Assembly: GCA_027531565.1 (NCBI GenBank)
Contig: JAPZSB010000005.1
Location: 1 to 64,000, forward strand
Length of the DNA stretch: 64,000 nucleotides
Source: Beijerinckiaceae bacterium
GTDB lineage: Bacteria; Pseudomonadota; Alphaproteobacteria; Rhizobiales; Beijerinckiaceae
Reading direction: 5' to 3'
Part shown: positions 42,436 through 62,270 of the stretch, in pieces
Layout: every line of letters begins with the position of its first letter
How positions within the stretch are numbered: the stretch's first letter is position 1
Made by a program: the position numbers and the translations under genes
The notes under the pieces: model-generated
What the model saw: only the letters and a program-made list of their open reading frames with translations
The model's database searches: none
What the model was told of the DNA's origin: nothing

Positions 42436-45400
42436 CTACAGCACGAAGTCCGAGGCGGTGAGCGCGTGGCTGCCCTGAAGCCAGACATGGAAATCGACGA
42501 CACGGTCGCCATCCGTATCGGCATAGACATGGGTATAGCCGTCGCCGAGATCGTTCTGGTATCTCAGCTGGCCAGCAAGGCCCGTGAAATCGCCGCTTCC
42601 GAGGAACGCAAAGGCCTGATCGCCGGCAAGCCCGGCATCCGCATCGATCGTACTGACATCGATCCTGTCGGTGCCGCGGAGGAAGTCGAGGATGATGTCC
42701 TCGCCATAGGTGGCGTTGCTGTCGCCGACCGAGTTGAAATCGAAGATGTCGGCGCCGGTATCGCCCTGCAGCGTATCCGAGCCGAGGAAGCCGGAGAGAC
42801 GGTCATTGCCGGTCCCGCCATAGATCATGTCGTAATCGGCCGTGCCGGTGATCGTGTCATGCCCGCCACCGCCGTTGATCGCCGCGCCGGTGATGGTGAC
42901 CGCCGAGAAATCGAAGGTGTTCGCCGCCGAGCTGCCGAGGATCACGGTGTCACCGAAGCCGTTGATGGCCTCGATTCCGGCAATCGCCGAAAGGCCGATC
43001 GTCACGCCCGGGGCGGTGGCGACGAGGATGTCATGCCCGGCACCGCCATTGACATTGTCGAAGCCTTCGCTCGCATCCTCGTACCGGAACACGTCGTCGC
43101 CGTTGCCGCCGGTGAGCGTGTCGTTTCCGTCACCCCCGATGATGATATCGGCAATTCCGGAGCCGGTGATCGTGTCGTTGCCGCCCATGCCGAAGATGCC
43201 GGCAATGTTGGTCAGGGTTGCGGTGCCGAAATTCAGGCTGTTGTTCAGCGCGTTCCCGGCAATTGTTGCATTGGCGATGCCGGTGGCATTGAACACTTCG
43301 ATCGAGCTCAGCGACGAGACGGAGAGGACGGCATTGTCCTCCGTGAAGAGCACCGTATCGGTGCCGCTGCTGCCATTGATCGAGTCGGTGCCGGAATTCG
43401 TTCCGATCAGGAACGTGTCGTTCCCGCTGCCGCCATTCAGGGTGTCGTCGCCGCCGCCGCCCGTAAGGATGTTCGCCGCGGTGGACCCGGTGATCACATC
43501 GCCATGGTCCGTCCCGATCACGTTCTCGAAGGCGGTGATCGTGTCGCCGGTCGCATCCCCGCCGGTGACGGCGTTGGTGGAGAGATCGATCGTCAGGGCA
43601 TCCCAGCTCCCGGCATAGGAGACGGTGTCCACACCATTGCCGCCATTGAGGATATCGGCCCCCGAACCACCATGGATGACGTCGTTGCCGTCCTCGCCCA
43701 TCAGCGTTTCATCAGCATAGGTGCCGATGATCGTATCATTGCCGGCGCCGGCCCGGATGGTGGCGATGCCGGCCAGTATCGTCACCGTCGAGTCGATGAC
43801 GTCATTGCCGGTCCCGAGCTGGATGCTGACATTGGCAAAGCCGCCGCCGTCGATTTCCTCGATGCCGCTGATCGCCGACAGGCCGATTTTCGCGTTGTCG
43901 GCCGTCGCCCGGACGATGTCGTAACCCTCGCCGCCTGAAACGGCGTCGAGCCCTTCTGAGGCGCCGGAAAACAGGAAGACGTCGCTGCCATTCCGCCCCG
44001 TCAGCGTGTCATTGCCGGTGCCGCCGTTGAAGGTGACATTGGCACCGTCGATCGCGCTCAGCGTGTCGTGGCCACCGAGACCGCTGACGATCCAGTCGCC
44101 GAGGCCGGTCACCGTGTAGGTGTTGCCGCTGCCCGTGCCGGTCCAGGTTTCCGTGGCGACATCATTGAGATAGATCGTGAAAACCTGATCGCCGGTCGAT
44201 ATGCCATCGCTGGCGCGGACGGTGACATTCCAGGCGTTCTGGGTTTCCGCATCGAGCAGGGCACCATTCAGCACCGTGATCGCGCCGGTCGTCGCGTTGA
44301 TCTGGAACCGGCCGCCGGCATTGTCGACGAGGCTGTAGGTGAGGGCGGCGCCCGTCGGTGAGACAGCCGAAGCCGTCACGCCGGTAGAGGTTCCCGTTGC
44401 AGCATTTTCGTTGACGAGATCGGCCGCACCATTGCTGTCGACGGGCTGGTCGCCTGTGAAATCATCAAGGCTGATCGCGAACACGCTGTCGGAATGGGCG
44501 CCGAGGCTGTCGGTCGCGCGGACGGTGATAACGCGCAGTGCCCCGGTCTCATAGTCCAGAAGCGCCCCGTTCAGGACGCGGATCACACCTGTCACCGGGT
44601 CGATCTGGAACCGGCCGCCATCATTGTTGGCAAGGCTGTAGGTGACGGCGTCGCCATTGGGGTCAGCCGCTTGCGCGGTGATGCCGACGAGAGTTCCGGT
44701 CGCCGCGCCCTCGATCACGTGGTCAAGTGCGCCATCGGCATCGAAAGGCAATTCCGGGGCGCTGTTGCCCTCGGTCACCAGAATGGTGAAGGTCCGCGTC
44801 GAGGTAAAGCCGAGGTTCGTGGCCTCGACCGTGATTGTGTAGCCCCGATCCGGCCCGCCATTGATTTCGGGCGCGGTCTGATAATTCAGGAGGGAAGCGT
44901 TCGCTACCGTCACGATGCCGGTTGCCGCATTGATCGCGAACCTGCCGCCGAGCGTATCGGTCAGCGCATAGGTCACTGCCTGCCCGGCCAGCACGCTGCT
45001 CGGATCGACATTCACATCGATCCCGACGCCGGAACCATTCGTGGCATCTTCGGAAACGGTACCGGCTACGCCATTGATGGCGGTCCCTGCGGTCGCATCA
45101 GCATCCTGCCAGTTGGCCGGCGTGAGATCGAGGGTCTGATCGGCGAATTGCAGCTTCTCGACATCGATAAGGATGTCTCCGCCGCCTGCCAGGGCAGTGC
45201 CGGTCTCGATGCCGAGGCTGTCGATAACCCGAACCTGGCCGGGCCCCTCGACGATGATCGAATAGCGCGAAGACATGCCACCATAGACAACCGTGTCGAT
45301 GCCGGCATTTCCGTCGATCATATCGTTGCCGGAGGCCTCGTTGGTGCCATCAGCGGCATCGATATCGCCGTCATTGTCGCTGTCAAATCGCTGGTTTGCG

Positions 45401-45957
45401 GAGGAGCCGATGATCGTGTTGTCCGCCTGGCTGAACTCGAGCCGCACACCCTCCAGACTGATCCGCGTGAAATCCTGCAGGCCGCCGCCTTCGAAATAGG
45501 CACGGAAATTGGCGGAATCACCACCGGAGAGCCCTTCGATTGAATCGCCGGCAAGGTCAGCGATATTGCCGAAGACCAGCGTCAGGTTGTTCTCGTCGGC
45601 AACAAGTTGGTCGAAGCCCGTTCCGCCATCATGGAGGTTCGTGCCGCCCGGACCGGTGCCGGCATAGAAATGGGTCAGCCCGCCGGTCTGATTGTAGCTG
45701 CTGCTCCATTCGCCCTTCAGGAAAAAGCGGTCATTGCCGGCATCGCCGAACAGAGAGTCCAAGCCGCTGCCACCATGGAGCCTGTCATTCCCGTCGCCAC
45801 CGCGGATCACATTCACGCGGGCATCGCCGGTCAGGTCGTCATCGCCGCCATTGCCTTCGATATTGACGGCATTCGCGCCGTGCAGGGCCGGGTTGAGAAT
45901 GATCTGCTCTCCGGCCGATGTCCCGATGACGGTATTCCCAATAACAATAACAGGCAT
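42436..45957 (-). CDS. RTX calcium-binding protein with cadherin-like repeats (type I secreted)
   Basis: A 1173-residue acidic, cysteine-free protein without a signal peptide. RTX nonapeptide blocks (GGxGxDxxx) lie at about 35-80, 640-660, 735-780, 815-850, 925-955 and 1030-1075. Three cadherin-like repeats (about 297-397, 410-500, 510-600) each contain GGRF(A/Q)I-TG-I-V-N-LL. A serralysin-type C-terminal domain (about 1060-1173) ends in DFVL, the usual type I secretion tail. Residues 667-705 and 963-1001 are an internal duplicate (EG.D.V.GG.G.DI, IGLSAI.GIE.I). No catalytic domain is visible, so adhesion or S-layer/matrix function is likely. No secretion ABC/MFP genes are nearby. Confidence 0.9.
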   Translation of the reverse strand: MPVIVIGNTVIGTSAGEQIILNPALHGANAVNIEGNGGDDDLTGDARVNVIRGGDGNDRLHGGSGLDSLFGDAGNDRFFLKGEWSSSYNQTGGLTHFYAGTGPGGTNLHDGGTGFDQLVADENNLTLVFGNIADLAGDSIEGLSGGDSANFRAYFEGGGLQDFTRISLEGVRLEFSQADNTIIGSSANQRFDSDNDGDIDAADGTNEASGNDMIDGNAGIDTVVYGGMSSRYSIIVEGPGQVRVIDSLGIETGTALAGGGDILIDVEKLQFADQTLDLTPANWQDADATAGTAINGVAGTVSEDATNGSGVGIDVNVDPSSVLAGQAVTYALTDTLGGRFAINAATGIVTVANASLLNYQTAPEINGGPDRGYTITVEATNLGFTSTRTFTILVTEGNSAPELPFDADGALDHVIEGAATGTLVGITAQAADPNGDAVTYSLANNDGGRFQIDPVTGVIRVLNGALLDYETGALRVITVRATDSLGAHSDSVFAISLDDFTGDQPVDSNGAADLVNENAATGTSTGVTASAVSPTGAALTYSLVDNAGGRFQINATTGAITVLNGALLDAETQNAWNVTVRASDGISTGDQVFTIYLNDVATETWTGTGSGNTYTVTGLGDWIVSGLGGHDTLSAIDGANVTFNGGTGNDTLTGRNGSDVFLFSGASEGLDAVSGGEGYDIVRATADNAKIGLSAISGIEEIDGGGFANVSIQLGTGNDVIDSTVTILAGIATIRAGAGNDTIIGTYADETLMGEDGNDVIHGGSGADILNGGNGVDTVSYAGSWDALTIDLSTNAVTGGDATGDTITAFENVIGTDHGDVITGSTAANILTGGGGDDTLNGGSGNDTFLIGTNSGTDSINGSSGTDTVLFTEDNAVLSVSSLSSIEVFNATGIANATIAGNALNNSLNFGTATLTNIAGIFGMGGNDTITGSGIADIIIGGDGNDTLTGGNGDDVFRYEDASEGFDNVNGGAGHDILVATAPGVTIGLSAIAGIEAINGFGDTVILGSSAANTFDFSAVTITGAAINGGGGHDTITGTADYDMIYGGTGNDRLSGFLGSDTLQGDTGADIFDFNSVGDSNATYGEDIILDFLRGTDRIDVSTIDADAGLAGDQAFAFLGSGDFTGLAGQLRYQNDLGDGYTHVYADTDGDRVVDFHVWLQGSHALTASDFVL

Positions 45958-47255: not shown

Positions 47256-48695
47256 TCAGCTCGCAATGAAATGCGTGAGCTTTGTGTTCTGATAATCTCG
47301 GATCGCTTCCCTTCCGCCCTCCCGCCCCATGCCCGAATGGTTGATGCCGCCAAAGGGCGCTTCCGCATGGGCGACGAGGAAGGTGTTGAGTCCCACCATG
47401 CCGGCCCGCAGGCCCCGCGACAGGACTTCCGCACGGGCATGGCTGCCGGTGAAGGCATAGGCCGCCAATCCGTACGGTGTTGAATTCGCACGGGTCAGCG
47501 CCTCGTCGAGGGTGGCAAACCCGGCGACGGCCGCAACCGGACCGAACGGTTCCTCCGCCATCAACGCGGCATCCGGCGGCACATCGGCGACAATGGTCGG
47601 CTCGTGGAAATAGCCGCGGTTGAGACTGCGCGGCCGCTTGCCCCCGGTGACGATCCGGCCCCCGCGCAACACGGCATCCTCCACGAGACGCTCGACTTTC
47701 TGCCGGCCGGATTCGAGCGTCAGCGGCCCCATCGTGGTGGCCGCCTCCTGGCTGTCGCCCAGCACGAGGGCCCGGGCTTCCGCCTCGAAAACGTCGAGGA
47801 AGCGGCCGAGAACGCCCTGTTCGACATAGAATCGGTTGGGCGCGATGCAGACCTGCCCGGCATTGCGGAACTTGAAGGCTGCGCATTGCCGGGCGGCCTG
47901 TTCCACATCCGCATCGGCGCAGACGATGACCGGCGAATGCCCGCCGAGTTCCATCGAGCATCGCTTCATGGTGCGTGCCGCCTCGGCCATGAGCATCTGG
48001 CCGACGCGCGTCGATCCGGTGAGCGAGATCTTCCGCACCTCCTCGGCACCCATGAGGTGCGGGCTGATATCGGCGGCGCGGCCAAACAGCACCTGCACCA
48101 CGCCCGGCGGCGCTCCGCCTTCGATACAGGCCTCGGCGATCAGCGTTGTCGTCAGGGGAACCTGTTCGGAGGGGCGGACAATCACCACGCAGCCCGCCGC
48201 CAAAGCCGGCGCGATCTTCCGGACAGGCAGGTTGACCGGAAAATTCCACGCCGAAAAGGCGGCGACGATGCCGACAGGCTCATGCTCGACAACGAGGCGG
48301 CCGCCATTCCGCGCGGCGATCGTCTCGCCGAACAGGCGTTCAGCCTCGCCGGCATACCATTGGAACTGTTCGATGGCGGCATTGACCTCCCCCTCGGATT
48401 GCGAGAGGGGTCGCCCGATCTCGAGGGACAGGGCCTGCGCGATGGCCTGCCGGCGGCTTCGCATCGCCTCGGCGATGGCCCGGAGGATGCGCCCGCGCTC
48501 CCAGCCATGGACGCCCGGCCAGGTGGCCTGCGCCCCGCGCGCGGCGGCCAAGGCCTCGTCAACCTCGCGGGCCGTGCAGGCCGGCTGTTCCCACAGGGTC
48601 TCTCCGGTGCAGGGATTGATGACGGGGATCGGCGTGCCGCTCGCGCACTCACGGAACGTTCCGCCGATCAGCAGGCGAGGCTGTGTCTTGACCAT
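47256..48695 (-). CDS. NAD(P)-dependent semialdehyde dehydrogenase (GabD/KGSADH-like)
   Basis: A 479-residue aldehyde dehydrogenase: NAD-binding FSAWNFPVNLPVRKIAPALA, catalytic Glu in MELGGHSP, and catalytic Cys in GQVCIAPNRF. Overall closest to succinate-semialdehyde dehydrogenase (GabD). Next to a sugar-acid dehydratase it may instead oxidise alpha-ketoglutarate semialdehyde, the last step of non-phosphorylative pentose oxidation (inference). It ends the gene cluster starting at the Liv binding protein and lies 24 bp after the dehydratase. Confidence 0.88.
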   Translation of the reverse strand: MVKTQPRLLIGGTFRECASGTPIPVINPCTGETLWEQPACTAREVDEALAAARGAQATWPGVHGWERGRILRAIAEAMRSRRQAIAQALSLEIGRPLSQSEGEVNAAIEQFQWYAGEAERLFGETIAARNGGRLVVEHEPVGIVAAFSAWNFPVNLPVRKIAPALAAGCVVIVRPSEQVPLTTTLIAEACIEGGAPPGVVQVLFGRAADISPHLMGAEEVRKISLTGSTRVGQMLMAEAARTMKRCSMELGGHSPVIVCADADVEQAARQCAAFKFRNAGQVCIAPNRFYVEQGVLGRFLDVFEAEARALVLGDSQEAATTMGPLTLESGRQKVERLVEDAVLRGGRIVTGGKRPRSLNRGYFHEPTIVADVPPDAALMAEEPFGPVAAVAGFATLDEALTRANSTPYGLAAYAFTGSHARAEVLSRGLRAGMVGLNTFLVAHAEAPFGGINHSGMGREGGREAIRDYQNTKLTHFIAS

Positions 48696-48719: not shown

Positions 48720-50438
48720 TCAGAGAATGGCGGGTTCGGGCGAGGGGCGCCCGAAGCCGGTTTCGAGGAAGTCGAAATCGCAGCCCGTGTCGGCCTGCAT
48801 GACGTGCCGGGCGAAAACCCAGCCATAGCCGCGCTCGAAATGCGGCTCCGGGGCGCGCCAGGCCTGCTTCCGGTCCGCGAGTTCGGCATCGGAAACCTCC
48901 ATGTCGAGCGTCCCGGCCTGGGCGTCGACCGCGATCATGTCGCCCGTCCGCACGAGCGCCAGCGGCCCGCCGAGATGCGCCTCCGGGGCCACATGCAGGA
49001 TGCAGGCGCCATAGCTGGTCCCGCTCATCCGGGCATCGGAGATCCTCAGCATGTCGGAGACCCCGCGGGCGAGCAGCGCCTTCGGGATGGGCAACATCCC
49101 CCATTCCGGCATGCCCGGCCCGCCCTGTGGCCCGGCGCCGCGCATCACGAGGACCGTGTCCTCCGTCACAGCAAGTGCGGGGTCATCGATCCGCGCCTTC
49201 ATCTCGGCATAGCTGTCGAAGACGAGGGCCGGGCCGCGATGCCGCAGGAGGCGCGGATCGGCGGCCGAGGGCTTCATCACTGCGCCGTCCGGGGCGAGGT
49301 TGCCGCGCAGGACCGCCATGGCCGGCTGCCGGGAGACGGGATTGTCGAGACCGCGGATGACATCGGGCAGGAAAACCTCCGCGCCGGCCAGTTCCTCGGC
49401 GAGCGTCCTGCCGCTCGCGGTCATCGCGCCGCCGGCGATATGGCCCTCCATCCGGGCCATCATGGCGCGGAGGCCGCCTGCATAGAAGAAATCCTCCATC
49501 AGATAGCTGCTGCCAGAGGGGCGGATATTGGCGAGAACGGGAATGCGCTGCCCGGCAGCGTGGAAATCGTCGAGGGAGAGCGGAAATCCCGCCCGCCGCG
49601 ACAGCGCAAGGAGATGGATGATCGCGTTGGTGGAACACCCCATGGCCATCGCGACGGCAAGGGCATTCGCGAAGGATTCCCGGCTGAGGAGACGCGAGGG
49701 CGTCAGCTGCTCGTGGACCATCGCAACCGCCCGCCGCCCGCATTCGGCGGCAAGGCGGATGTGATTGGCATCGGCAGCCGGGATGGACGAGGCTCCGGTG
49801 AGGCAGAAGCCGAGGGCATCGGCAATTGCCGTCATCGTGGCGGCCGTACCCATGGTCATGCAATGACCATGGGACCGCGCAATCCCGGCCTCGACGGCCT
49901 GCCATTCCTTGAGGTCGATCCGCCCGGCCCGGCGTTCGTCCCAGTATTTCCAGGCATCCGAACCCGAGCCCAGCACCTCGCCGCGAAGGTTGCCGCGCAG
50001 CATCGGCCCGGCCGGCATGAAGATCGCCGGCAGGTCCATGCTGATGGCCCCGAGCAGCAGGGCCGGCGTGGTCTTGTCGCATCCGCCCATCAGTACGGCG
50101 CCGTCGACCGGGTGCGAGCGCAGGAGTTCTTCCGTCTCCAGCGCCAGCAGGTTCCGGTAGAGCATGGTCGTCGGCTTGACGAAATTCTCGCTCAGGGAAA
50201 GCGCCGGCAATTCGATCGGGAAGCCGCCCGCCTGCAGGACGCCGCGCTTCACGTCCTCCGCGCGCTGGCGGAAATGGGCGTGGCACGGGTTGATGTCTGA
50301 CCACGTATTGATGATCGCGATGACGGGACGGCCCTCCCAGTCCTCGCGGGAATAGCCCATCTGCATCAGGCGCGAGCGGTGCCCGAAGCCACGGAGATCG
50401 TCGGTATCGAACCAGCGGGAAGAGCGGAGGCGGGTCAT
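48720..50438 (-). CDS. IlvD/Edd-family sugar-acid dehydratase (L-arabonate dehydratase-like)
   Basis: A 572-residue Fe-S dehydratase. Cluster ligands appear in MGGCDKTTPALL and SHGHCMTMGTAATM; the C-terminal SDARMSGTSYGACILHVAPE is the pentonate-dehydratase form of the family motif. N-terminal SDINPCHAHFRQRAEDVKRGV distinguishes it from Edd. Likely reaction: an aldonate such as L-arabonate to its 2-keto-3-deoxy acid. Its start region is duplicated (see the repeat at 50425). Confidence 0.88.
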   Translation of the reverse strand: MTRLRSSRWFDTDDLRGFGHRSRLMQMGYSREDWEGRPVIAIINTWSDINPCHAHFRQRAEDVKRGVLQAGGFPIELPALSLSENFVKPTTMLYRNLLALETEELLRSHPVDGAVLMGGCDKTTPALLLGAISMDLPAIFMPAGPMLRGNLRGEVLGSGSDAWKYWDERRAGRIDLKEWQAVEAGIARSHGHCMTMGTAATMTAIADALGFCLTGASSIPAADANHIRLAAECGRRAVAMVHEQLTPSRLLSRESFANALAVAMAMGCSTNAIIHLLALSRRAGFPLSLDDFHAAGQRIPVLANIRPSGSSYLMEDFFYAGGLRAMMARMEGHIAGGAMTASGRTLAEELAGAEVFLPDVIRGLDNPVSRQPAMAVLRGNLAPDGAVMKPSAADPRLLRHRGPALVFDSYAEMKARIDDPALAVTEDTVLVMRGAGPQGGPGMPEWGMLPIPKALLARGVSDMLRISDARMSGTSYGACILHVAPEAHLGGPLALVRTGDMIAVDAQAGTLDMEVSDAELADRKQAWRAPEPHFERGYGWVFARHVMQADTGCDFDFLETGFGRPSPEPAIL

Positions 50439-50491
50439 TTTGGAGCCTTGCGGAGGCGGGTCATTGGAGAGCCTTGCAGAGGGATGTCATT
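50425..50491. repeat. 26-bp tandem duplication over the dehydratase start
   Basis: Units at 50425-50450 and 50451-50476 share the start CGGAGGCGGGTCATT and end GCCTTG, differing at only a few positions. A third degenerate unit lies at 50477-50491 (11 of 15 matching). On the minus strand each copy contains ATGACCCGCCTCCGC, the dehydratase start, but the upstream copy is out of frame (26 bases away). Confidence 0.88.
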
Positions 50492-51308
50492 GCGAGGCCG
50501 TCACGCCGCCATCGATGTAGACGACCTGCCCGGTCATGTAGCTGCCTGCCGGCGCAGCGAAAGCGATGATCTGGCCGACCACTTCGAGCGGATCGCCGAT
50601 CCGCCCGAGCGGATTGCGTTCGAGGATGAAGTCACGGAAGGCCGGCCGTTCGAGATGCTTCCGGATCCGGTCGGACCGGATGAAGGTCGGCGCTACGCCA
50701 TTCACCGTGATGCCGTACGGGGCCAGTTCCATCGCATGCTGCTTGACCAGCATGACGAGGCCCCCCTTGGTGGCGCAATAGGCCGAATACCCGCGCCCCC
50801 GGAGGGCGAGCTGCGACCGGACGGACAGGAGATGGATCTGGCGTCCGCCCTGTTTCCGGGCAATCTGGTCACGCGCGACGGCCTGGCCGAGAAACATCGC
50901 CGATTTCAGGTTGGTCTGGTACATTTCATCGAACGTCTCTTCGGTGACGTCCATCAGCAGCTGCTCACGCTGTATGCCGACGCAATTGACGAGGATGTCG
51001 ATCCCGCCCATCAGCGCGCTCGCCTGGTCCACGGCATCGGTGATCGACGCGACGACGCGGGCATCGATCCCGAAGCCGTGGGCCTTGCCGCCGCTCTGGG
51101 CGATCCGGTTCGCCAGTTCGGCAGCCTTGGCCTCGCTGGGACCGGCGACGGCGACTTCGGCGCCCATGCGCGCCATAGTGATGGCGACAGCCTCGCCGAT
51201 CGCGCCATAGCCGCCGGGAATGAAGACCCTCAGGCCCCGGATGTCGAACAGGGCGTCGATCTGGGCCGGGTCGATGGCCGGCGTCAACGAAAGGGCTGGC
51301 TTGTTCAT
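50487..51308 (-). CDS. Short-chain dehydrogenase/reductase
   Basis: A 273-residue classical SDR. Cofactor loop IPGGYGAIGEA, NCVGIQREQ (NNAG position), catalytic Ser in LLSVRSQLAL and YSAYCATKGG (YxxxK). It ends GQVVYIDGGVTAS. Resembles sugar or gluconate 5-dehydrogenases. The start overlaps the stop of the Gfo/Idh gene (ATGA); the frame stays open for 480 codons beyond, which is a shadow of that gene and the ABC gene. Confidence 0.92.
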   Translation of the reverse strand: MNKPALSLTPAIDPAQIDALFDIRGLRVFIPGGYGAIGEAVAITMARMGAEVAVAGPSEAKAAELANRIAQSGGKAHGFGIDARVVASITDAVDQASALMGGIDILVNCVGIQREQLLMDVTEETFDEMYQTNLKSAMFLGQAVARDQIARKQGGRQIHLLSVRSQLALRGRGYSAYCATKGGLVMLVKQHAMELAPYGITVNGVAPTFIRSDRIRKHLERPAFRDFILERNPLGRIGDPLEVVGQIIAFAAPAGSYMTGQVVYIDGGVTASQ

Positions 51309-52312
51309 GCGCAGATCTCCACTCCGGCAGCGCGATAGACGCTCTCCATCAGGCGCAGTGTTTCGAGGTTGTCCAAGCGGTCGGTCTCGAACGGGGCTCC
51401 GCTCGCCAGTCCTGCAAGGAAAGCGCGCATCGCGGTGTCGAAGCATTCCTGGTACCGGCCGATCAGATCGACCGTGGTGAGCGTTTCCGCCTCCCGGCCC
51501 ACGATGAAGACCCGGTCGAGCTCCATCATGATCGTTCCGCGCGTGCCGATGACCTCGAGCCGGTCGCCATGCAGCTCCGGATAGCCCGGGGCGCAGATGC
51601 AGCCATCGGCAATGGCGATGAGGCCGCCCGGCCCCTCCATCAGGATCGACGCGGTATCCTCGCCCGGCAGGCCTTCCGCCAGCCGGCCGAGCCGCGCAGC
51701 GACAACGGTCAGCGAACCGGCGAGGCAGCGCAGGACGTCGAGGTGGTGGATCATGGTTTCGAGGACGAGGTTGCGCCTGTATTCGCGGAGATAGGGCTGC
51801 CTCTCGACCAGAAAGGGCGGCCGCCCCTCGCGTGGGCAGAGGCCTGAACCCCGGCAGTTGATGCCCAGATGGCGGATTGCGCCGATCCGCCCCTCGTTGA
51901 TCCAGCGGCGTACCGTCATGTAGTGCGGCCGGAACCGGTAATTCTCGTGGACCATGAAGCGGACGCGGTCGCCGATATCGCGGACGAGCGCTTCGGCCTC
52001 GGCCACGGTGCTGCACATCGGCTTCTGGAGCATGATATGGACGCCGTGACCGGCGGCCAGCCGTGCGAGCGGCGCATGGGCGGCCATGGAGGCGGCGATA
52101 TCGGCGATGGTGAAACCGCCGTCGTCGAACAGGTCGGCCGGATCGGCATAGGCCCTGCCGATCCCGAATTCTCTCGCCCGGGCCTGCGCCCTTGCAAGAT
52201 CGGGATCGCAGACGGCCACGACCTCGACGCCGGCTTTCTGCCAGGCTCTCAGGTGATAGGTGCTGATCAGGCCGCAGCCGAGCAGCGCAACCCGGGGCAC
52301 GATGCCGTTCAT
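51305..52312 (-). CDS. Gfo/Idh/MocA-family oxidoreductase
   Basis: A 335-residue NAD(P)-dependent sugar oxidoreductase. Rossmann loop LLGCGLISTYHL, then HIMLQKPMCSTVAEAEAL where most members have EKP (Gln replaces Glu); later YRRNLVLETMIHHLDVLRCLAG carries the catalytic His region. Probably oxidises or isomerises a sugar or inositol-like compound. Overlaps both neighbours by ATGA. Confidence 0.9.
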   Translation of the reverse strand: MNGIVPRVALLGCGLISTYHLRAWQKAGVEVVAVCDPDLARAQARAREFGIGRAYADPADLFDDGGFTIADIAASMAAHAPLARLAAGHGVHIMLQKPMCSTVAEAEALVRDIGDRVRFMVHENYRFRPHYMTVRRWINEGRIGAIRHLGINCRGSGLCPREGRPPFLVERQPYLREYRRNLVLETMIHHLDVLRCLAGSLTVVAARLGRLAEGLPGEDTASILMEGPGGLIAIADGCICAPGYPELHGDRLEVIGTRGTIMMELDRVFIVGREAETLTTVDLIGRYQECFDTAMRAFLAGLASGAPFETDRLDNLETLRLMESVYRAAGVEICA

Positions 52313-52932
52313 GGCCGGGCCCCCGGCAGGAGCGTTCCGAGATAGGCGCGGGCCGGTTCATGGGCGAGCAGGGCGTCGAATGTGTCGAGCGCGGTGACAG
52401 TTCCCTTCTGGACGAAGATGAACCGCTCGCAGATCTCCTCGATGATCTCGAGATGGAACCTCTCGTTCGGATGCACGCAGAGGAAAACCAGCCGGCCCTG
52501 CGCGCGCAGCTTCCGGAAGAAATCCAGCATGAAGCCGATATAGCCATCCTGCGTGTTGAACTGCGGCTCGTCGAACAGATGGACCAGCGGATAGGCGGAG
52601 CCCGCCGCATCGAGCAGCAGGTTCGGCGTGTAGGACCGGAAATGCCGGACCTGGTAGGATTGGTGGTAATGGATGGCCAGCCGGTCCCGCTGGTCGGTCC
52701 GCACCTTGTGGATATTGCGCCCCTGGACGAGGACTTCGCCCTCGGTCGGGGCATTCGAGCCGGTGACGAGCTCGAACAGGGTTGTTTTTCCCGAACCGTT
52801 CGGTCCCATCATTCCGACAATGGCCGGCTCGTCGATCGCGAAATCGGCCGAGAGCTGGAAAGTCGGCGTCCGGTCGAGAAGGCCGCGGCGGTAGATCTTC
52901 CGGAGACCCCTGACTTCGAGCATGCGCGTCAT
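52309..52932 (-). CDS. Truncated ABC ATPase lacking signature motif
   Basis: A 207-residue ABC-type ATPase: Walker A GPNGSGKT (43-50), possible Q-loop Q91 (HYHQSYQ), Walker B LVHLFDEP (116-123) and H-loop H154 (FLCVHPNE). The helical subdomain with LSGGQ and the D-loop (SALD) are missing: only about 30 residues separate Q91 from the Walker B aspartate, where normal proteins have about 75. It is third in a series of ABC genes after LivG and LivF, between livF (3-bp gap) and the Gfo/Idh gene (overlap). A real subunit, regulator or a stable variant; not a recent frameshift, as the frame is open and coupled. Confidence 0.82.
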   Translation of the reverse strand: MTRMLEVRGLRKIYRRGLLDRTPTFQLSADFAIDEPAIVGMMGPNGSGKTTLFELVTGSNAPTEGEVLVQGRNIHKVRTDQRDRLAIHYHQSYQVRHFRSYTPNLLLDAAGSAYPLVHLFDEPQFNTQDGYIGFMLDFFRKLRAQGRLVFLCVHPNERFHLEIIEEICERFIFVQKGTVTALDTFDALLAHEPARAYLGTLLPGARP

Positions 52933-52935
52933 GGC

Positions 52936-53631
52936 TCAGATCCCGATCAGGCGACGCCGCAGCGTCAGGTTGCCGAGAAGCTCGGAGGCAGGGCCTTCAT
53001 GCTCGATATGCCCGCGGTCCATCACATAGACGCGGTCGGACACCTCGAGCATCGCGAGGGCGTTCTGTTCGACCACGAGGGCGGCGATGCCCTCGTCCTT
53101 CAGCCGCCGGATGGTCCGCAGCACATCCTGCACGATCTTGGGCGCGAGCCCCTGGCTCGGCTCGTCGAAGAGCACGATCCCGGGCGAGCCCAGCAGCGCG
53201 CGGGCGATGGAAACCATCTGCAGCTCGCCGCCGGACATCGTCTCGCATTCCCGGACATAGAGGTTCTCCAGGGCCGGGAAGATCGAGAACATCTCGGCTT
53301 CGTTCCATGCCCGGAAGCGCGTCCGGCGCGTGCCGATCTTCAGGTTCCGCGCCGCTGTGAGGGTGGGGAAGACCCGGCGATCATCCGGCACCCACGACAC
53401 GCCCATCCGGGCGATGGCATGGGTCGGCAGGCGGGTGATGTCGCGCCCGTCGAACCGGACAGTGCCCTGTCGCGGCGGCGAGAGACCCAGAATGGAGCGG
53501 ATCGTCGTCGTCTTGCCGGCGCCGTTCGGCCCGAGCAGGGCGACGATCTCGCCGGGCTGCACCGACAGCGAGACGCCGAACAAGGCCTGCGTTTCGCCGT
53601 AGAAGGTCTCGATAGCGTTGATCCCGAGCAT
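52936..53631 (-). CDS. livF: Branched-chain-type ABC transporter ATPase (LivF-like)
   Basis: A 231-residue ATPase: Walker A GPNGAGKTT, signature MSGGELQM (family usually MSGGEQQM), Walker B IVLFDEPSQGLAP, and H-loop VVEQNA. LivF type by length and by the SQGLAP following Walker B. Starts one base inside livG's stop (TGATG). Symbol denotes family only. Confidence 0.93.
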   Translation of the reverse strand: MLGINAIETFYGETQALFGVSLSVQPGEIVALLGPNGAGKTTTIRSILGLSPPRQGTVRFDGRDITRLPTHAIARMGVSWVPDDRRVFPTLTAARNLKIGTRRTRFRAWNEAEMFSIFPALENLYVRECETMSGGELQMVSIARALLGSPGIVLFDEPSQGLAPKIVQDVLRTIRRLKDEGIAALVVEQNALAMLEVSDRVYVMDRGHIEHEGPASELLGNLTLRRRLIGI

Positions 53632-54374
53632 CACACGGCCTCCCGCAGCGAGGAGCGCGCCACCCACTTGTTGGCCATGAGTTCCGCCGGCGTGCCCTCG
53701 GTAATGACCTGGCCCCAATGGATGACGGAAATCCGGTCGGCGAGGCCGAACAGGAACCGCATGTCATGCTCGATCAGGCAGATCGTGTACCGGGTCCTGA
53801 GGCGCCGGATCAGGGCCGCAAGGGCGCGCGTGGCCTCGACCCCGAGGCCGGATGTCGGTTCGTCGAGGAACACGATCCGGGGTTCCGCGGCGAGAGCCAC
53901 CGCGATTTCGAGGGCCCGGCGGTTGCCATAGCTCAGCGACTTGGTCTTCGACCAGGCGCTGTCGGCCAGCCCGACCATGTCGAGCACGGCGAGGGCGGCG
54001 TCGATCAGGGTCCGGTCGGCGAAGCCGTTGCCGAAGATCCGGCCGGTCTGCGCCTTGAAGGCGGGCAGGGCCAGCAGGACATTCTCGATGACGACCGTAT
54101 CGTCGAACAGGTTCATGATCTGGAACGAACGGGCAATACCGAGCCGGGCGATCCGGTGCGGCGGCAGGCCGGCAATGTTCCGGCCCGCGAAGACGATGCT
54201 GCCGGCATCCGGGGCGTGATGCCCGGTCAGGAGGTGGAAGCAGGTCGTCTTGCCTGCCCCGTTCGGTCCCATGATGCCATGGACCGTGCCTTCCTCGATG
54301 CCGAGCGTGATGTTCTCGAGCACAACTCTGGCGCCGAACCGCTTCTGGAGTCCTGTGGCCTGGAAGAGGGTCAT
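53631..54374 (-). CDS. livG: Branched-chain-type ABC transporter ATPase (LivG-like)
   Basis: A 247-residue ATPase: Walker A GPNGAGKTT, IARSFQIMNLF (Q-loop, LivG type), signature LSYGNRRALEIAVALA, Walker B IVFLDEPTSGLG, H-loop LIEHDM. The longer frame upstream belongs to livM. ATG 54374 overlaps the livM stop (ATGA). Confidence 0.94.
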   Translation of the reverse strand: MTLFQATGLQKRFGARVVLENITLGIEEGTVHGIMGPNGAGKTTCFHLLTGHHAPDAGSIVFAGRNIAGLPPHRIARLGIARSFQIMNLFDDTVVIENVLLALPAFKAQTGRIFGNGFADRTLIDAALAVLDMVGLADSAWSKTKSLSYGNRRALEIAVALAAEPRIVFLDEPTSGLGVEATRALAALIRRLRTRYTICLIEHDMRFLFGLADRISVIHWGQVITEGTPAELMANKWVARSSLREAV

Positions 54375-55390
54375 GGCGTCGTCTCCACGATCCGGGCCGG
54401 CGGAACCGGCGCCTCGCGGCGGCGCGCTGTGCCGATCAGCCCGGCCAGCCCCTCGGGGCGGACCATGACCATCACCACGAACATCAGCCCGTACCAGAGC
54501 AGCCAGGTCTCGGTGAGGCCGCCCAGCACTTCCCGGGCGAGGAAATAGAGCAGGACACCGAGGATCGGGCCCCAGAAATTCACCAGCCCGCCGCCGACCA
54601 GCACCATCATCACGACGAGGCCGGATTGATGCAGGCTCATCACGTCGGGATAGGCGCTGTTCTGGGCCATCGCGAGCAGGGCGCCCGCCAGCCCCGCAAA
54701 CGTCGCGGAGATCGTGAAGGCGAGCCATTTCCAGCGCCAGACATCATACCCGACGAAACGGGCGCGCATCTCGTTCTGGCGGATCGCCTGCAGCACCCGG
54801 CCGAAGGGTGAGTTGACCACGCGCCACAGCCCGATCACCACAAGGGCGGCGAGCGCAGCGACGAACCCGTAGAAGATGCGGTTGTCGGCAAGCGCCAGCG
54901 TGGCATCGCCGATCTGCAGGGGAGGGCGGGGGATACCGAGGAGCCCGTCCTCGCCACCGGTGATCCGGTGCAGCTTGATCGAGGAGAACCAGAAGATCTG
55001 GCCGAAGGCGATCGACAGCAGCGCGAAGTAGATTCCCCGCCGGTGCGACAGGAACAGCGCGACGAAGCCGCCGGCCACCATTGCCGCGAGCAGCGCGGCG
55101 CCGAGGCCGCCCCACAGGCTGATCGATACATTGTGCTGGAACAGCCCGAATGCGTAGGCGCCGATCCCGAGATACGCGCCATGGCCGAAGGAATGCAGGC
55201 CGGTATAGCCGAACAGCAGGTTGAACCCCATCGCGAAGATGATCCAGATCGCGATTTCGATCGCGAGGTAATGGTAGAGGCCGAACCGGGCGACCAGGAA
55301 CGGCGCGGCCACCAGCAGCACGAGGAAGGCTGCCATCGGCAGGATGAAAGGCGATCCGCCCTTCGGAGGGATGTCTGACAGGTTGATCAT
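54371..55390 (-). CDS. livM: Branched-chain-type ABC permease (LivM-like)
   Basis: A 339-residue permease with about ten helices: FGYTGLHSFGHGAYLGIGAYAFG in the middle and the EAA-like loop AIRQNEMRARFVGYDVWRWK, both typical of LivM. Five bases separate it from livH. Forms the pore with LivH. Confidence 0.93.
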   Translation of the reverse strand: MINLSDIPPKGGSPFILPMAAFLVLLVAAPFLVARFGLYHYLAIEIAIWIIFAMGFNLLFGYTGLHSFGHGAYLGIGAYAFGLFQHNVSISLWGGLGAALLAAMVAGGFVALFLSHRRGIYFALLSIAFGQIFWFSSIKLHRITGGEDGLLGIPRPPLQIGDATLALADNRIFYGFVAALAALVVIGLWRVVNSPFGRVLQAIRQNEMRARFVGYDVWRWKWLAFTISATFAGLAGALLAMAQNSAYPDVMSLHQSGLVVMMVLVGGGLVNFWGPILGVLLYFLAREVLGGLTETWLLWYGLMFVVMVMVRPEGLAGLIGTARRREAPVPPARIVETTP

Positions 55391-55394
55391 GATC

Positions 55395-56315
55395 TCAGTT
55401 TTCCAGCGCGCTCTTGCGACCCAGGAGACCCCGCGCCCGGAAGCCGACGATCAGGATCAGCAGGATGTACATCGACACCATCGACCAGGCCGGCACGAAG
55501 GCGCCGGTCAGGCCGACGGAAAGGCCGACGAGAAGGGAGGCGATCACCGCGCCCCAGAAGCTGCCCACGCCGCCGATGACGATGATCAGGAAGGCGGGAA
55601 TGACGACATCGAGGCCGATATGCGGGCGCAGCCCCCAGATCGGCGCCATGACAATGCCGGCGAGCCCGGCCAAGGCAGCCCCGAACCCGAAGACGAACAG
55701 GCGCAGCCGTCCGAGATCGTAGCCCAGGGCGCGGACCATCTCGCTGTCATGCGCCCCGGCCTTGATGATCGCGCCATAGGGCGTCTTCTCGAGGAAGAGC
55801 CAGACGCACAGGATGGCGAGGATCGCGAAGCCGGCGGCATAGACCTTGTAGGTCGAGAAGATCATGCCGCCAATAAGCATGGCGCCGGTGATCGCGCCCG
55901 GCGTGCGCAGGTTCTGCTCGCCCGCGCCCCAGGCCAGCCGGATGCTCTCCTCGAGCACGAGGGCGGCGCCGAAGGTCAGCAGCAGGCCGTAAAGCGAGGC
56001 CTTGCCATAGGTCGGCCGGAGGCAGACCTCCAGCAGCGCGCCCACAAGGCCGGCAAGCAGGGGCCCGACAAGTGCCGCCACCGCATAGCGGGTCCCCAGC
56101 GGAAAGGTGAGCCACCATTGGCCGAACTCGCTGGTGGCCAGAGGCCCGCCGCTGATCGTCGTCAGCGCGAAATAGGCTCCCAGCGCGAACAGCGAGCCAT
56201 GGGCGAGATTGATGACCTCCATCACCCCGACGATGAGCGTGAAGCCGAGTGCGATCAGGGCAAAGAGCAGGCCGAGGGTCAGGCCATTGATGAGATGGGG
56301 CAGGATCGATTGCAT
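55395..56315 (-). CDS. livH: Branched-chain-type ABC permease (LivH-like)
   Basis: A 306-residue permease with eight helices: NGLTLGLLFALIALGFTLI and EVINLAHGSLFALGAYFALT at the start, and SEMVRALGYDLGRLRLFVFGFGAALAGLAG as the ATPase-contact loop. Lies 75 bp after the binding-protein gene, behind a strong hairpin. Confidence 0.93.
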   Translation of the reverse strand: MQSILPHLINGLTLGLLFALIALGFTLIVGVMEVINLAHGSLFALGAYFALTTISGGPLATSEFGQWWLTFPLGTRYAVAALVGPLLAGLVGALLEVCLRPTYGKASLYGLLLTFGAALVLEESIRLAWGAGEQNLRTPGAITGAMLIGGMIFSTYKVYAAGFAILAILCVWLFLEKTPYGAIIKAGAHDSEMVRALGYDLGRLRLFVFGFGAALAGLAGIVMAPIWGLRPHIGLDVVIPAFLIIVIGGVGSFWGAVIASLLVGLSVGLTGAFVPAWSMVSMYILLILIVGFRARGLLGRKSALEN

Positions 56316-56390: not shown

Positions 56391-57677
56391 TCAGGCGTCG
56401 AAGGTCGGCGTGGCCTCGTAGCTCTCGAGCTTGCAGGCTGCCGGCGCGTCGAGGTCGACCACATCCTTCGGCTCGGCCTGGGCCAGAAGCGCGAAGAGAT
56501 CGTCCTTGTCCTTGGGGCGGGGATTGGCCGTCGCCAGATAGATCGTCTGCTGGACCTGATGGGTCCTGGCATCGATCATGGCGTCGAAATGCTGCATCCG
56601 GTCCCGGGCCTTCATGACATGGCCTTCGAGCGCCTTGATGACCGCGATGTTGTTGGTCGTTCCCGCGCGCTCGATCGCCGCGAACAGCTCCCGCGCTGCC
56701 ATGTACCCGTTGTAGAAGACGTTGCCGGGAACCTTGATGGCTTCGTTCGGATACATCTTCTTGTATTTCTCGACGAATTCCTTGACGCCCGGCAGGGTCA
56801 GCTCGTGGTACCAGGTGGTCCCGAACACACCGAACAGGTTGTCCGCGGGCAGGCCATACACATCCGGCCAGTCCTGCTGGTTGTTGAGCCAGACGGGCTT
56901 GTTGCCCATGCCGAGCTGCGCCACCTGCTGGCGGAGGGCCTTCTGGTCGTCTCCGCCGATTGCCGCGGCCACGATCGAGGGCTTGAGCTGCTGGATCTTG
57001 ATGAGCGCGGCGGTGAAATCGCGCGTGCCCTGCGGGATCAGGATCTCTTCCAGAACCTTGCCGCCGAACTCGGCGATCTGCTTCTTGGTGGTGCGGGCCG
57101 TGTCATGCCCCCAGACATAGTCGTTCGTCAGCAGCACGAAGGTGCCGCCGAAGGCATTGATCGAGTTCTTGATCGCGGCCTTGGCGAAGTTGGTGCCGTT
57201 GCCGTCCCACACGAATTTCACGCGGTGGCAGTTCTGGCCGGCTTCGGTCGGCGAGGACGAATTGGTGTTGAAATAGATGACGCCGTATTTCTGGGCGACC
57301 TGGCTGATGGCGTTGGCCACGCCGGAATGGACGCCGCCGAGAAGAAATCCGCACTTTTCCTGCTGGATCATGCGCTCGGCCACCCGGCTCCCGGTCGCCG
57401 GTGTCGTTTCCGTGTCGATATGGGTGCTGACGAGCTTGCGCCCCAGCAGGCCACCACGCGCATTCGCTTCCTCGATCGCCATCAGGATCCCGCGGCGTTC
57501 GTCGGCGCCGGAATTAGCATATTGACCGCTGGCATCGGTTGTGGTGCCGATCATGATCGGTTTCGCGGCACCCTGGGCCAGGACGCGGTTATGCGTCCAC
57601 GGTCCCATGAATGTCGCGACGCCACCGGCAGCCGCAGACGCAAGTAGGTTTCTCCGATTGATTTTGGAATTCAACAC
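56391..57677 (-). CDS. Liv-type ABC substrate-binding protein with Tat-type signal
   Basis: A 428-residue periplasmic-binding protein type 1 (Peripla_BP_6, LivK/UrtA/FmdD-like). The N-terminus NRRNLLASAAAGGVATF has the twin-arginine motif, so export may be by Tat. Mature part: IGTTTDASGQYANSGADERRGILMAIEEANARGGLLGRK, then GGVHSGVANAISQ. Starts with GTG at 57677 preceded by GGGAGGT. Ligand unknown; neighbours point to a sugar or sugar acid rather than amino acids (inference). First gene of the long minus-strand cluster. Confidence 0.92.
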   Translation of the reverse strand: MLNSKINRRNLLASAAAGGVATFMGPWTHNRVLAQGAAKPIMIGTTTDASGQYANSGADERRGILMAIEEANARGGLLGRKLVSTHIDTETTPATGSRVAERMIQQEKCGFLLGGVHSGVANAISQVAQKYGVIYFNTNSSSPTEAGQNCHRVKFVWDGNGTNFAKAAIKNSINAFGGTFVLLTNDYVWGHDTARTTKKQIAEFGGKVLEEILIPQGTRDFTAALIKIQQLKPSIVAAAIGGDDQKALRQQVAQLGMGNKPVWLNNQQDWPDVYGLPADNLFGVFGTTWYHELTLPGVKEFVEKYKKMYPNEAIKVPGNVFYNGYMAARELFAAIERAGTTNNIAVIKALEGHVMKARDRMQHFDAMIDARTHQVQQTIYLATANPRPKDKDDLFALLAQAEPKDVVDLDAPAACKLESYEATPTFDA

Positions 57678-57851: not shown

Positions 57852-58688
57852 ATGCCGACAAATCCGCAGGCGCCGGAAACCTTCGATGCCCTTCGCCAGC
57901 GCATCCGGGACCGTTTCGACGGGTTGAGCCCCCATCTCCAGCGCATTGCGCGGGCATCGCTTTTCGATCCGAACACCTTCGCGCTGAGCACGACGGCCGC
58001 TCTCGGCGAGGCGCTCGAGATCCAGCCTTCGACGTTGATCCGCTTCGCCAAGGAATTTGGCTATTCCGGCTTCTCCGATCTCCAGCGTGTCTTCCGCCAG
58101 CGGCTGATCGAAGGGGCGGCGACCGTGCGCGACAAGGTTCTCGATTCAGCGCCGTCGAGCGCGCCGGCGGATATCGGGGCGATCCTGGCGGACAGCATAG
58201 CGGTCCATCGGCAGGCACTCGATTCGCTGGCGGAAACCTGCGATCACGCGGCTTTGGGACGGGCGATCGATGCCATCCGCGCAGCGGATCATGTCTATGT
58301 CGCAGGCCTCAGGCGCTCGCGTCCGATCGCGGATTACCTGCTCTACGGCCTGATGCGCAGCGAAAGGCCTTGCAGTCTGCTTGATTTCGCGGGCGGTATG
58401 GCGGGCTCCCAGATCGCGACCATCCGCCCCGGTGACGTGCTGGTGGCGATTGCCTTTCCGCCCTATTCGCCGCCGGTCCTCGAAGCCGTCATGGATGCGC
58501 ATATCTCCGGCAAGCGCGTTGTCACGATTACCGACAGCGACCAGAGCCCGCTGGCGATCAATTCGCATGTCTGCCTGACCGTCGCCTCATCGACACCCAG
58601 CCGCATGCAGCCGATCGGCGGGGCGATCGCGCTTGTCCATGCGATCCTGATCGCGATCACGCCGGGCGCACTGCCGGGAACGTCCTGA
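57852..58688 (+). CDS. MurR/RpiR-family transcriptional regulator
   Basis: A 278-residue regulator: N-terminal HTH_6 (about 10-85; TTAALGEALEIQPSTLIRFAKEFGYSGFSDLQR) and a SIS sugar-phosphate-binding domain (about 120-260; HVYVAGLRRSRPIADYLL). RpiR members sense phosphorylated sugars. It is divergent from the Liv/sugar-acid cluster and probably controls it. GGGAGAGA precedes ATG 57852. Confidence 0.94.
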   Translation: MPTNPQAPETFDALRQRIRDRFDGLSPHLQRIARASLFDPNTFALSTTAALGEALEIQPSTLIRFAKEFGYSGFSDLQRVFRQRLIEGAATVRDKVLDSAPSSAPADIGAILADSIAVHRQALDSLAETCDHAALGRAIDAIRAADHVYVAGLRRSRPIADYLLYGLMRSERPCSLLDFAGGMAGSQIATIRPGDVLVAIAFPPYSPPVLEAVMDAHISGKRVVTITDSDQSPLAINSHVCLTVASSTPSRMQPIGGAIALVHAILIAITPGALPGTS

Positions 58689-58742: not shown

Positions 58743-59111
58743 TCAGTTGATCCGGCCGGTCGAGGTCCTGCCGTCGGCACCGGTCAGCTGGACGGCGCCC
58801 TTCACACGGGCCGGCAGGGCTTCGGCCGCCGCACCGACCAGCTTGCTCCCGTCCGGAGCCGGCTCCAGCGTCACCCGGACAGATTTGCCCGAAACGGCGA
58901 GGATGGCGAGCGCCTTGAAGCCCGTGGCCGGCAGCGGCCTGTCCTGGGCATCGCTGACAAAGACCTCGACCGCCTTGTCCCGCGTCACCAGTTCGACATG
59001 GTAGGTTCCCGCATCGACCAGCGCGCCGCCGCGCGGTCCCGTCCGCTGTTCGTGCGCCCCGGCGGCGGTGATGCCGGTGGCAAGGGCAAGGCTGGCAAGC
59101 AGGATGCGCAT
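58743..59111 (-). CDS. Small periplasmic protein of a metal-efflux operon
   Basis: A 122-residue secreted protein: signal peptide 1-19 (AGAHE), mature part GPRGGALVDAGTYHVELVTRDKAVEVFVSD, with only one His-rich hint (AHE). It sits 12 bp downstream of the RND pump gene, last in the operon. Its early segment resembles the N-terminal beta-domain of the CzcB-like adaptor in this same operon. Possibly a metal or copper chaperone-like accessory; family name unknown. Confidence 0.75.
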   Translation of the reverse strand: MRILLASLALATGITAAGAHEQRTGPRGGALVDAGTYHVELVTRDKAVEVFVSDAQDRPLPATGFKALAILAVSGKSVRVTLEPAPDGSKLVGAAAEALPARVKGAVQLTGADGRTSTGRIN

Positions 59112-62100: not shown

Positions 62101-62270
62101 GCGAGGCCTTCCGCCTCGGTCATGATGGTCACGGTCGGCTTGTTCAGATCGGGCAGAACGTCGACCGGCAGGCGCGACATCACGAAGGCGCCGTAGAGCA
62201 TCAGCACGCCGGCAAAGGCGAGGACCAGCAGGCGATTGCGCAGGGATTGCGTGACAAGGAACGAGAACAT
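59124..62270 (-). CDS. Heavy-metal RND efflux pump (CusA/CzcA family)
   Basis: A 1048-residue inner-membrane proton/metal antiporter. Twelve helices in two halves, two large periplasmic loops. Begins MFSFLVTQSLRNRLLVLAFA. Helix 4 reads GGLAIAIGELVDDAVVDVENIFRRL, a pattern I associate with the HME4 subgroup rather than CusA or CzcA proper; metal therefore uncertain. Length fits. Starts four bases after the adaptor stop. Confidence 0.94.
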   Translation of the reverse strand: MFSFLVTQSLRNRLLVLAFAGVLMLYGAFVMSRLPVDVLPDLNKPTVTIMTEAEGLAPPEVEQLVTFPIETQMNGVPGVTRVRSVSGVGLSIVYVEFDWGTDIYRNRQQIAERLALVRERLPANVTPQMGPISSIMGQVLMVALTGPDHVTPMEMREIAEFIIRPRLLTIAGVAQVIPMGGEVRQYRVAPNPAAMRALGVTLEQIERALAAFGTNTGGGFADQYSREFLIRNVGRTLRLEDLAALVVAVSRDAPIRLDQVADVGYGARLKRGDAGFMGKPAVVLSIEKQPDIDTLRLTAELESALRDLSQTLPPGVKADNILFRQANFIETSIQNLKKVLLEAVAVVAVVLFLFLLNTRTTLISLTAIPVSILATAIVFHLMGLSINTMTLGGLAIAIGELVDDAVVDVENIFRRLRENREAGNPRSVFDVVVSASQEVRSGIVYATAIIVLVFVPLFALTGIEGRLFAPLGKAYIISILMSLVVSITLTPVMAYYLLPGLKRFDHGDGALVRVLKRANAALLAFAFRLPRLLMLVVLLMVGGAAWLAFQLPRAFLPPFNEGTLTINTLFNPGISLAESQRIGLIAERLILDVPEVRQVGRRTGRAELDEHAEGVHSSEIEVDLKPSARSKDAIITDIRERLAVLPLVTNVGQPISHRLDHMLSGVRAQIALKVFGEDLDQLRRVAEELRVKMAGIPGVVDLQVEKQVRIPHLDITVDYARAALYGITPATVTEQLERLSNGRVMSRLVDGTRRFDLVLRLDDRSRTTGSLASMLIETPRGWVPLSAVAEIRETDGPNQILRENGKRRIVVLANADGRADMAAIIAGIRNVVREHALPTGTFTMLEGTFQAQEEASRTIGLLSLVSLAMIFALLYSRYRSVRLALIIMGSVPLALIGSVAALRMAGQPLSIASMIGFITLTGIAARNGILKISHYINLSLHEGMPFGRDLVLRGSLERLTPVLMTALSAGIALVPLMIDAQAPGKEILHPVAITIFGGLVTATLLDMLLTPVLFLRYGAGPLARLQALHRQDLASDPSASRASMREAY

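Follow-up and report, generated by a model that had tools for sequence, protein, structure and literature searches.

The gene sABC encodes an ABC-type ATPase that, judged from its sequence and structural model, is an ABC core that has lost its helical subdomain, the loss being family-wide, and in the loci sampled it is tied to one clade of livF genes. It lies in the window, that is, the whole stretch of 64,000 nucleotides that was analysed, where it closes a run of six transporter genes in the order binding protein, LivH, LivM, LivG, LivF, and sABC. In the reading that we favor, and to which the sequence evidence gives about an even chance, sABC is an extra NBD-bound ATPase subunit, regulatory or gating, of a Liv-type (HAAT) importer for sugars or cyclitols.

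Conserved motifs and the missing helical subdomain

The open reading frame has its ATG end at 52932 and its stop at 52309 and contains the following features.

52309..52932 (−), sABC, 207-residue ABC-type ATPase without helical subdomain and signature motif
52783..52806 (−), Walker A GPNGSGKT, residues 43-50 (from sequence)
52645..52689 (−), invariant box at the Q-loop, residues 82-96, RDRLAIHYHQSYQVR (from conservation)
52582..52650 (−), short link, residues 95-117, where other ABC domains have the LSGGQ-bearing helical subdomain (from spacing and model)
52525..52581 (−), Walker B and putative diverged D-loop, residues 118-136, HLFDEPQFNTQDGYIGFML (from conservation)
52468..52479 (−), H-loop CVHP, residues 152-155, with C152, H154, and P155 invariant (from conservation)

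The hallmarks of ABC nucleotide binding, namely, Walker A, Walker B with its Glu (LVHLFDEP, residues 116-123), the H-loop His, and an aromatic residue at the A-loop position, are present in all 82 sABC sequences compared, and the places that the original prediction gave for Walker A, Walker B, and His154 agree with the translation of 52309-52932. With the Q-loop-like Gln94, Asp121-Glu122, and His154 all kept, the ABC half-site is complete in 82/82 sequences; Gln94 is aligned to the Q-loop Gln of LivG in the profile alignment. Residues of the Glu122 and His154 type are often lost from degenerate ABC domains. Within Walker A, G43, P44, N45, G46, G48, K49, and T50 are invariant (82/82) and residue 47 is almost so. 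The other residues invariant in all 82 sequences are, among others, Tyr14 at the A-loop position, R82, D83, R84, H88-Q94, R96, H118, F120-F125, D129-L136, C152, H154, and P155, which takes in the whole box HYHQSYQ-R (residues 88-96); Tyr14 and this box are additions to the original prediction. Between residues 118 and 136, 16 of 19 positions are invariant, and N126, T127, Q128, and L119, where not invariant, are kept in 80 to 81 of the 82 sequences. The histidines and cysteines form a set of their own, with H88, H90, H118, C152, and H154 invariant and H160 and C168 kept in 80/82 each.

The D-loop had been described as absent, a description that is right only in part: in the place where a SALD-like D-loop was looked for, the DEP of Walker B is followed by QFNTQD. 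Because Asp129 is invariant (82/82) and, in the model, is the first residue of the helix that follows Walker B, QFNTQD may be read as a diverged D-loop, one residue longer and strongly conserved.

The absence of the LSGGQ-bearing helical subdomain, the central claim of the original prediction, is borne out by motif scan, spacing, and model. Gln94 and Asp121 are 27 residues apart in 82/82 sABC sequences; the equivalent distance from Q-loop to Walker B in the same clusters is 73 in 78/78 LivF and 86 in 77/77 LivG proteins. A scan of the 82 sequences for [LIVMFY]SGG[QEMA] gave a single match, VSGGA at residue 176 of one relative (L098), which is not a signature motif because it lies far behind Walker B. 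The Pfam profile ABC_tran matched sABC with its first half alone (5-67 of 137), and when the sABC profile was aligned to LivF and LivG, the gap fell exactly over the helical subdomain and signature. A hidden signature motif, which the original prediction had named as something to be checked, was thus ruled out by the scan, the Gln94-Asp121 spacing, and the AlphaFold model of the monomer.

That model (pLDDT 90.3, pTM 0.87, 68 sequences) shows an ABC core with the strands of Walker A, Q-loop, Walker B, and H-loop; from residue 57 to residue 129, none of its helices reaches a length of four residues. Its inner blocks of lowest confidence, 91-100 (69) and 121-130 (71), are the most conserved loops of sABC, a combination that fits loops needing a partner. 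A Foldseek search of the model against the PDB returned 1104 matches at an E-value of 0.001 or better, the best 50 of which are all ABC ATPases with a full domain (best E 1.6e-12; TM-score by query length 0.71 at most); the shortest chain among these 50, of 213 residues, also has the full domain. No solved relative of the whole sABC chain was found, the sequence matches covering the N-terminal half at useful scores; the match to LptB includes a weak second stretch (i-E 0.11).

Family, conservation, and distribution

The relatives of sABC were obtained by scanning genome contigs, and the best 80 of 194 were kept. They are 62 to 95% identical to it over almost the full length; besides alpha-, beta-, and gamma-proteobacteria, their sources include records titled Desulfosarcina, Deltaproteobacteria, and Myxococcales. 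The 82 sequences, which span 198 to 220 residues, are the 80 fetched loci, the window copy, and L002 (same record as L021); as L055 and L056 are identical in the compared genes, the number of independent cases is slightly below 82. Of the 80 loci, 67 entered the alignment together with the window protein; L021, L029, L030, L033, L035-L038, L043, L056, L060, L070, and L089 were omitted. In L070 and L089, the tblastn match extends beyond an in-frame stop, and the conserved C-terminal end differs there.

The family appears discrete by sequence. Eleven of 297 genomes from the order of the window carry a member, all at E 6.7e-93 or better; after these comes a generic ABC protein at 5.2e-16, and no form intermediate between sABC and full-length ATPases was found among the 297. 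Five of 398 genomes across the phylum have sABC, the window's own genome counted, and a first search of 41 relative genomes gave a full-length match in the own genome and in one other (G014) only; in the searches of 297 and 398 genomes and in the livF survey described below, the top 7 to 10 first-look candidates of each genome were scored. No plasmid copy was found at an E-value of 1e-40. sABC stays far below the NCBIfam cut-offs for LivG (44.8 bits versus 362) and LivF (43.7 versus 441), its best score among the matches listed (25 of 135 families) is 54.5 with a cut-off of 240, and there is no family specific to it in Pfam, PADLOC, or those listed NCBIfam matches. A link to defence systems was considered and rejected, as the PADLOC match to mad3 (6.4e-5) covers the P-loop alone (residues 31-56) and was taken as general P-loop similarity. 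On ancestry, the comparisons disagree: by global profile alignment, sABC is 28% identical to LivG and 23% to LivF, whereas local E-values slightly favor LivF (3.4e-19 versus 2.6e-18 for LivG). In agreement with the original prediction, which knew of no description of such a layout, none of such a protein was found in the open-access literature, going by titles and the starts of abstracts.

Conservation was compared with that of the neighboring genes, with rows containing a stop or covering less than 85% (80% for RpiR) dropped from this table and from that of clade-specific residues. Columns at least 98% identical make up 32% of sABC (79 sequences), 31% of LivG and LivH, 28% of LivF and the binding protein, 21% of LivM, and 8% of the regulator. 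In mean column identity, sABC (0.75) is not at the top, LivF reaching 0.79 and GfoA 0.80 (29 sequences). The dN/dS of sABC is 0.04 to 0.19 in 12 usable close pairs, similar to that of LivF (0.05 to 0.16).

sABC does lack a part that LivF and LivG possess, as would a decaying gene or a local deletion of a full-length ATPase, the outcome that the original prediction had set as a check. However, the 80 relatives are equally short and built alike with identical spacing, dN/dS is far below 1, and intermediates are missing from the 297 genomes; we therefore give this explanation next to no chance.

Linkage to the transporter and the likely substrate

The genes around sABC in the window are as follows; locus counts refer to the 80 fetched loci.

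47256..48695 (−), aldehyde dehydrogenase, 26/80 loci
48720..50438 (−), IlvD/Edd-type dehydratase, 22/80 loci, passing the NCBIfam L-arabinonate dehydratase cut-off
50487..51308 (−), SDR dehydrogenase, 56/80 loci
51305..52312 (−), Gfo/Idh/MocA oxidoreductase, a variable neighbor, 28/80 loci
52936..53631 (−), LivF-type ATPase with MSGGE signature, directly upstream of sABC
53631..54374 (−), LivG-type ATPase with LSYGN signature
54371..55390 (−), LivM-type permease (BPD_transp_2)
55395..56315 (−), LivH-type permease (BPD_transp_2)
56391..57677 (−), periplasmic binding protein (Peripla_BP_6)
57852..58688 (+), divergent RpiR/MurR-type regulator with SIS domain

All parts of a HAAT (Liv-type) importer are present, namely, the binding protein, two permeases, and LivF with LivG. 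The LivF stop is followed after 3 nt by the ATG of sABC, whose own stop overlaps the next gene in a 4-nt ATGA, in line with the coupling that the original prediction had noted; its view of a real, selected gene in a Liv-type cluster is upheld. Further out, a 1173-residue open reading frame at 42436-45957 (−) is rich in GGxGxD-like repeats and by eye resembles RTX-type calcium-binding repeat proteins, and one of 1048 residues at 59124-62270 (−), again by eye, looks like a heavy-metal-type RND efflux pump and is adjoined by a short frame at 58743-59111.

LivF stands immediately upstream of sABC in 81/82 loci, the exception being a locus (L048) that begins 32 bases before sABC, and in all but one of the 79 loci measured (78/79), between −5 and +30 nt separate the livF stop from the sABC start. 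In L084 (8165-8640), the LivF frame stops 474 nt before sABC, possibly by a frameshift or sequencing error. Long open frames had raised the suspicion of a LivF-sABC fusion, which was rejected, none of the 79 measured loci being fused. A reverse survey with livF covered 385 genomes of the class; its sample is the 30 loci fetched for the stronger LivF matches. All eight intact non-self livF genes of 62 to 80% identity were accompanied by sABC, a further one of 68% (L134) was cut by the contig end, and at the fetched loci with livF of at most 50% identity, sABC was found at none of the 19 that could be tested (20 loci, L133 being cut). Thus, sABC tracks one livF clade, and the linkage is obligate in the sample.

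The other transporter genes stay as well. LivG is present at 79/82 sABC loci, and of the 52 loci exceeding 18 kb, all have LivM, LivH, and the binding protein (52/52) and 48 have the regulator. In eight loci with a split operon (L071, L073, L075, L076, L079, L087, L088, and L093), sABC keeps its place with LivM-LivG-LivF on one strand, and the other strand carries LivH and the binding protein. One MAG contig (L080, 1-8686) contains a shortened livF match and sABC, but over the 8.7 kb before livF neither livG nor livM nor livH was found; it is either a rearranged cluster or a contig artefact. The catabolic genes of the same 52 loci vary, with SDR in 36, the GarR-like reductase in 21, ALDH in 20, GfoA in 19, IolC in 18, and IlvD in 15. 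sABC therefore belongs to the transporter rather than to the catabolic genes, and a role in the catabolic part, which the original prediction had allowed, finds no support, as the catabolic genes change between clusters while the transporter genes stay.

The neighbors suggest that the importer probably takes up sugars or cyclitols such as inositol. The dehydratase of the window scores 1021 bits against the L-arabinonate dehydratase model of NCBIfam (cut-off 882), and its Gfo/Idh protein falls short of the inositol 2-dehydrogenase cut-off (101 versus 355). IolC, which neighbors sABC in 23/80 loci, points to inositol; two examples of IolC score 774 and 795 bits (cut-off 600), and one IolB scores 362 (cut-off 205). 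The annotation "branched-chain amino acid" carried by this importer clade is thus probably wrong as to substrate.

Possible functions and comparison with known systems

With its helical subdomain lost, sABC presumably can neither dock in the usual way on a permease nor complete the ATP site of a partner. Under the favored reading of an extra regulatory or gating subunit, sABC with ATP would bind to LivF/LivG. Its ATP face would lie against a face that bears a signature, most likely the [LM]SGGE of LivF, or against the C-terminal region of an NBD, and sABC would open or close the importer according to the state of ATP or substrate. A point against this reading is that both signatures are already engaged when LivF pairs with LivG, so that sABC would need to take the place of one of them or attach to another face. 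Physical contact with the importer, binding and hydrolysis of ATP, regulation, and the substrate are inferences. The earlier idea of an asymmetrically completed ATP site or an ATP sensor is supported in its direction, ATP binding itself being presumed from the conserved motifs.

The evolutionary distances of sABC track those of LivF and LivG and not those of LivM or LivH, which favors such contact. Partial correlations of distances (55 taxa) between sABC and the other proteins were 0.33 for LivF, 0.28 for LivG, 0.03 for LivM, and 0.01 for LivH. The same table gave 0.55 for LivG-LivM, 0.46 for LivF-LivH, and 0.47 for LivM-LivH, as expected of touching subunits, the pairing of NBD and permease not being independently established. 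However, sABC and the periplasmic binding protein, although contact between them is impossible, reached 0.16, so values of that size represent noise or linkage, and gene adjacency alone or shared history via recombination could raise the value for LivF. In this clade, 14 residues of LivF and 27 of LivG are almost fixed that seldom occur in the LivF and LivG of loci without sABC; some of them lie beside the two signatures, the two D-loops, and the C-terminus of LivG. This comparison had no control clade and is only suggestive.

It might also be proposed that transport is driven by an alternative NBD pair in which sABC stands in for LivG or LivF. A complete half-site needs a signature in trans, LivF has [LM]SGGE in 77/78 cases, and the D-loop region of sABC is conserved. 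However, LivG is found in 79/82 loci and is equally conserved, and an ABC subunit without helical subdomain would have no usual coupling surface for the permease, which makes this substitution very unlikely. A factor for assembly or stability of the importer, with ATP as a chaperone-like switch, would account for an obligate linkage without a tie to substrate chemistry, but nothing specific favors it and Liv importers elsewhere assemble without sABC; we regard it as quite improbable.

A serious rival, though on balance an unlikely one, is that sABC acts as a soluble P-loop enzyme that phosphorylates or otherwise activates the sugar or cyclitol as it enters; the loss of the helical subdomain would then have exposed a putative pocket with invariant His and Cys along its walls. 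The invariant H88, H90, H118, C152, and H154 and the near-invariant H160 and C168 do lie in or beside the core strands, and the strict conservation of sABC is enzyme-like; on the other hand, the surrounding catabolic genes vary, the inositol clusters (23/80 loci) already have the kinase IolC, and the distances of sABC track those of LivF and LivG. The same residues allow a bolder proposal, which we regard as rather unlikely, namely, that sABC represents a new type of ABC-derived protein: the freed face of a P-loop subunit without helical subdomain may have been rebuilt into an invariant His-rich site (H88, H90, and H118, with C152 and H154), and the subunit would run its own ATP cycle, in place of the LSGGQ sandwich, to gate or couple the sugar importer.

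We compared the sABC clusters with known systems. LivFGHMK/HAAT and UrtABCDE are alike in having a Peripla_BP_6 protein, two BPD_transp_2 permeases, and LivF/LivG with [LM]SGGE and LSYG, whereas the sABC clusters add a third ATPase gene behind livF and neighbors of sugar or cyclitol type; outside their own livF clade, the nearest LivF of the survey reaches about 50% identity at most. With canonical ABC domains (LptB, MalK, and MJ0796, among others), sABC shares the core fold, Walker A, Q-loop Gln, Walker B, and H-loop, but it has no helical subdomain or LSGGQ and its D-loop appears diverged. The Caulobacter inositol importer IbpA-IatA-IatP is, like some sABC clusters, an ABC importer tied to iol catabolism; its description gives one binding protein, one permease, and one ATPase of the sugar (XylF-type) family (PMC2597717) and, unlike the sABC clusters, names no Liv-type parts and no third ATPase.

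Being kept in distantly related bacteria, sABC probably has a function that is so far undescribed, and it marks a clade of importers annotated for branched-chain amino acids. If the favored reading is true, it would be a conserved exception, inside a working importer, to the rule that ABC ATPases act as sandwich dimers completed by LSGGQ. As a discrete family with invariant residues and an obligate partner, it would make the action of an ABC core without helical subdomain, whether as regulator, gate, or enzyme, directly testable.
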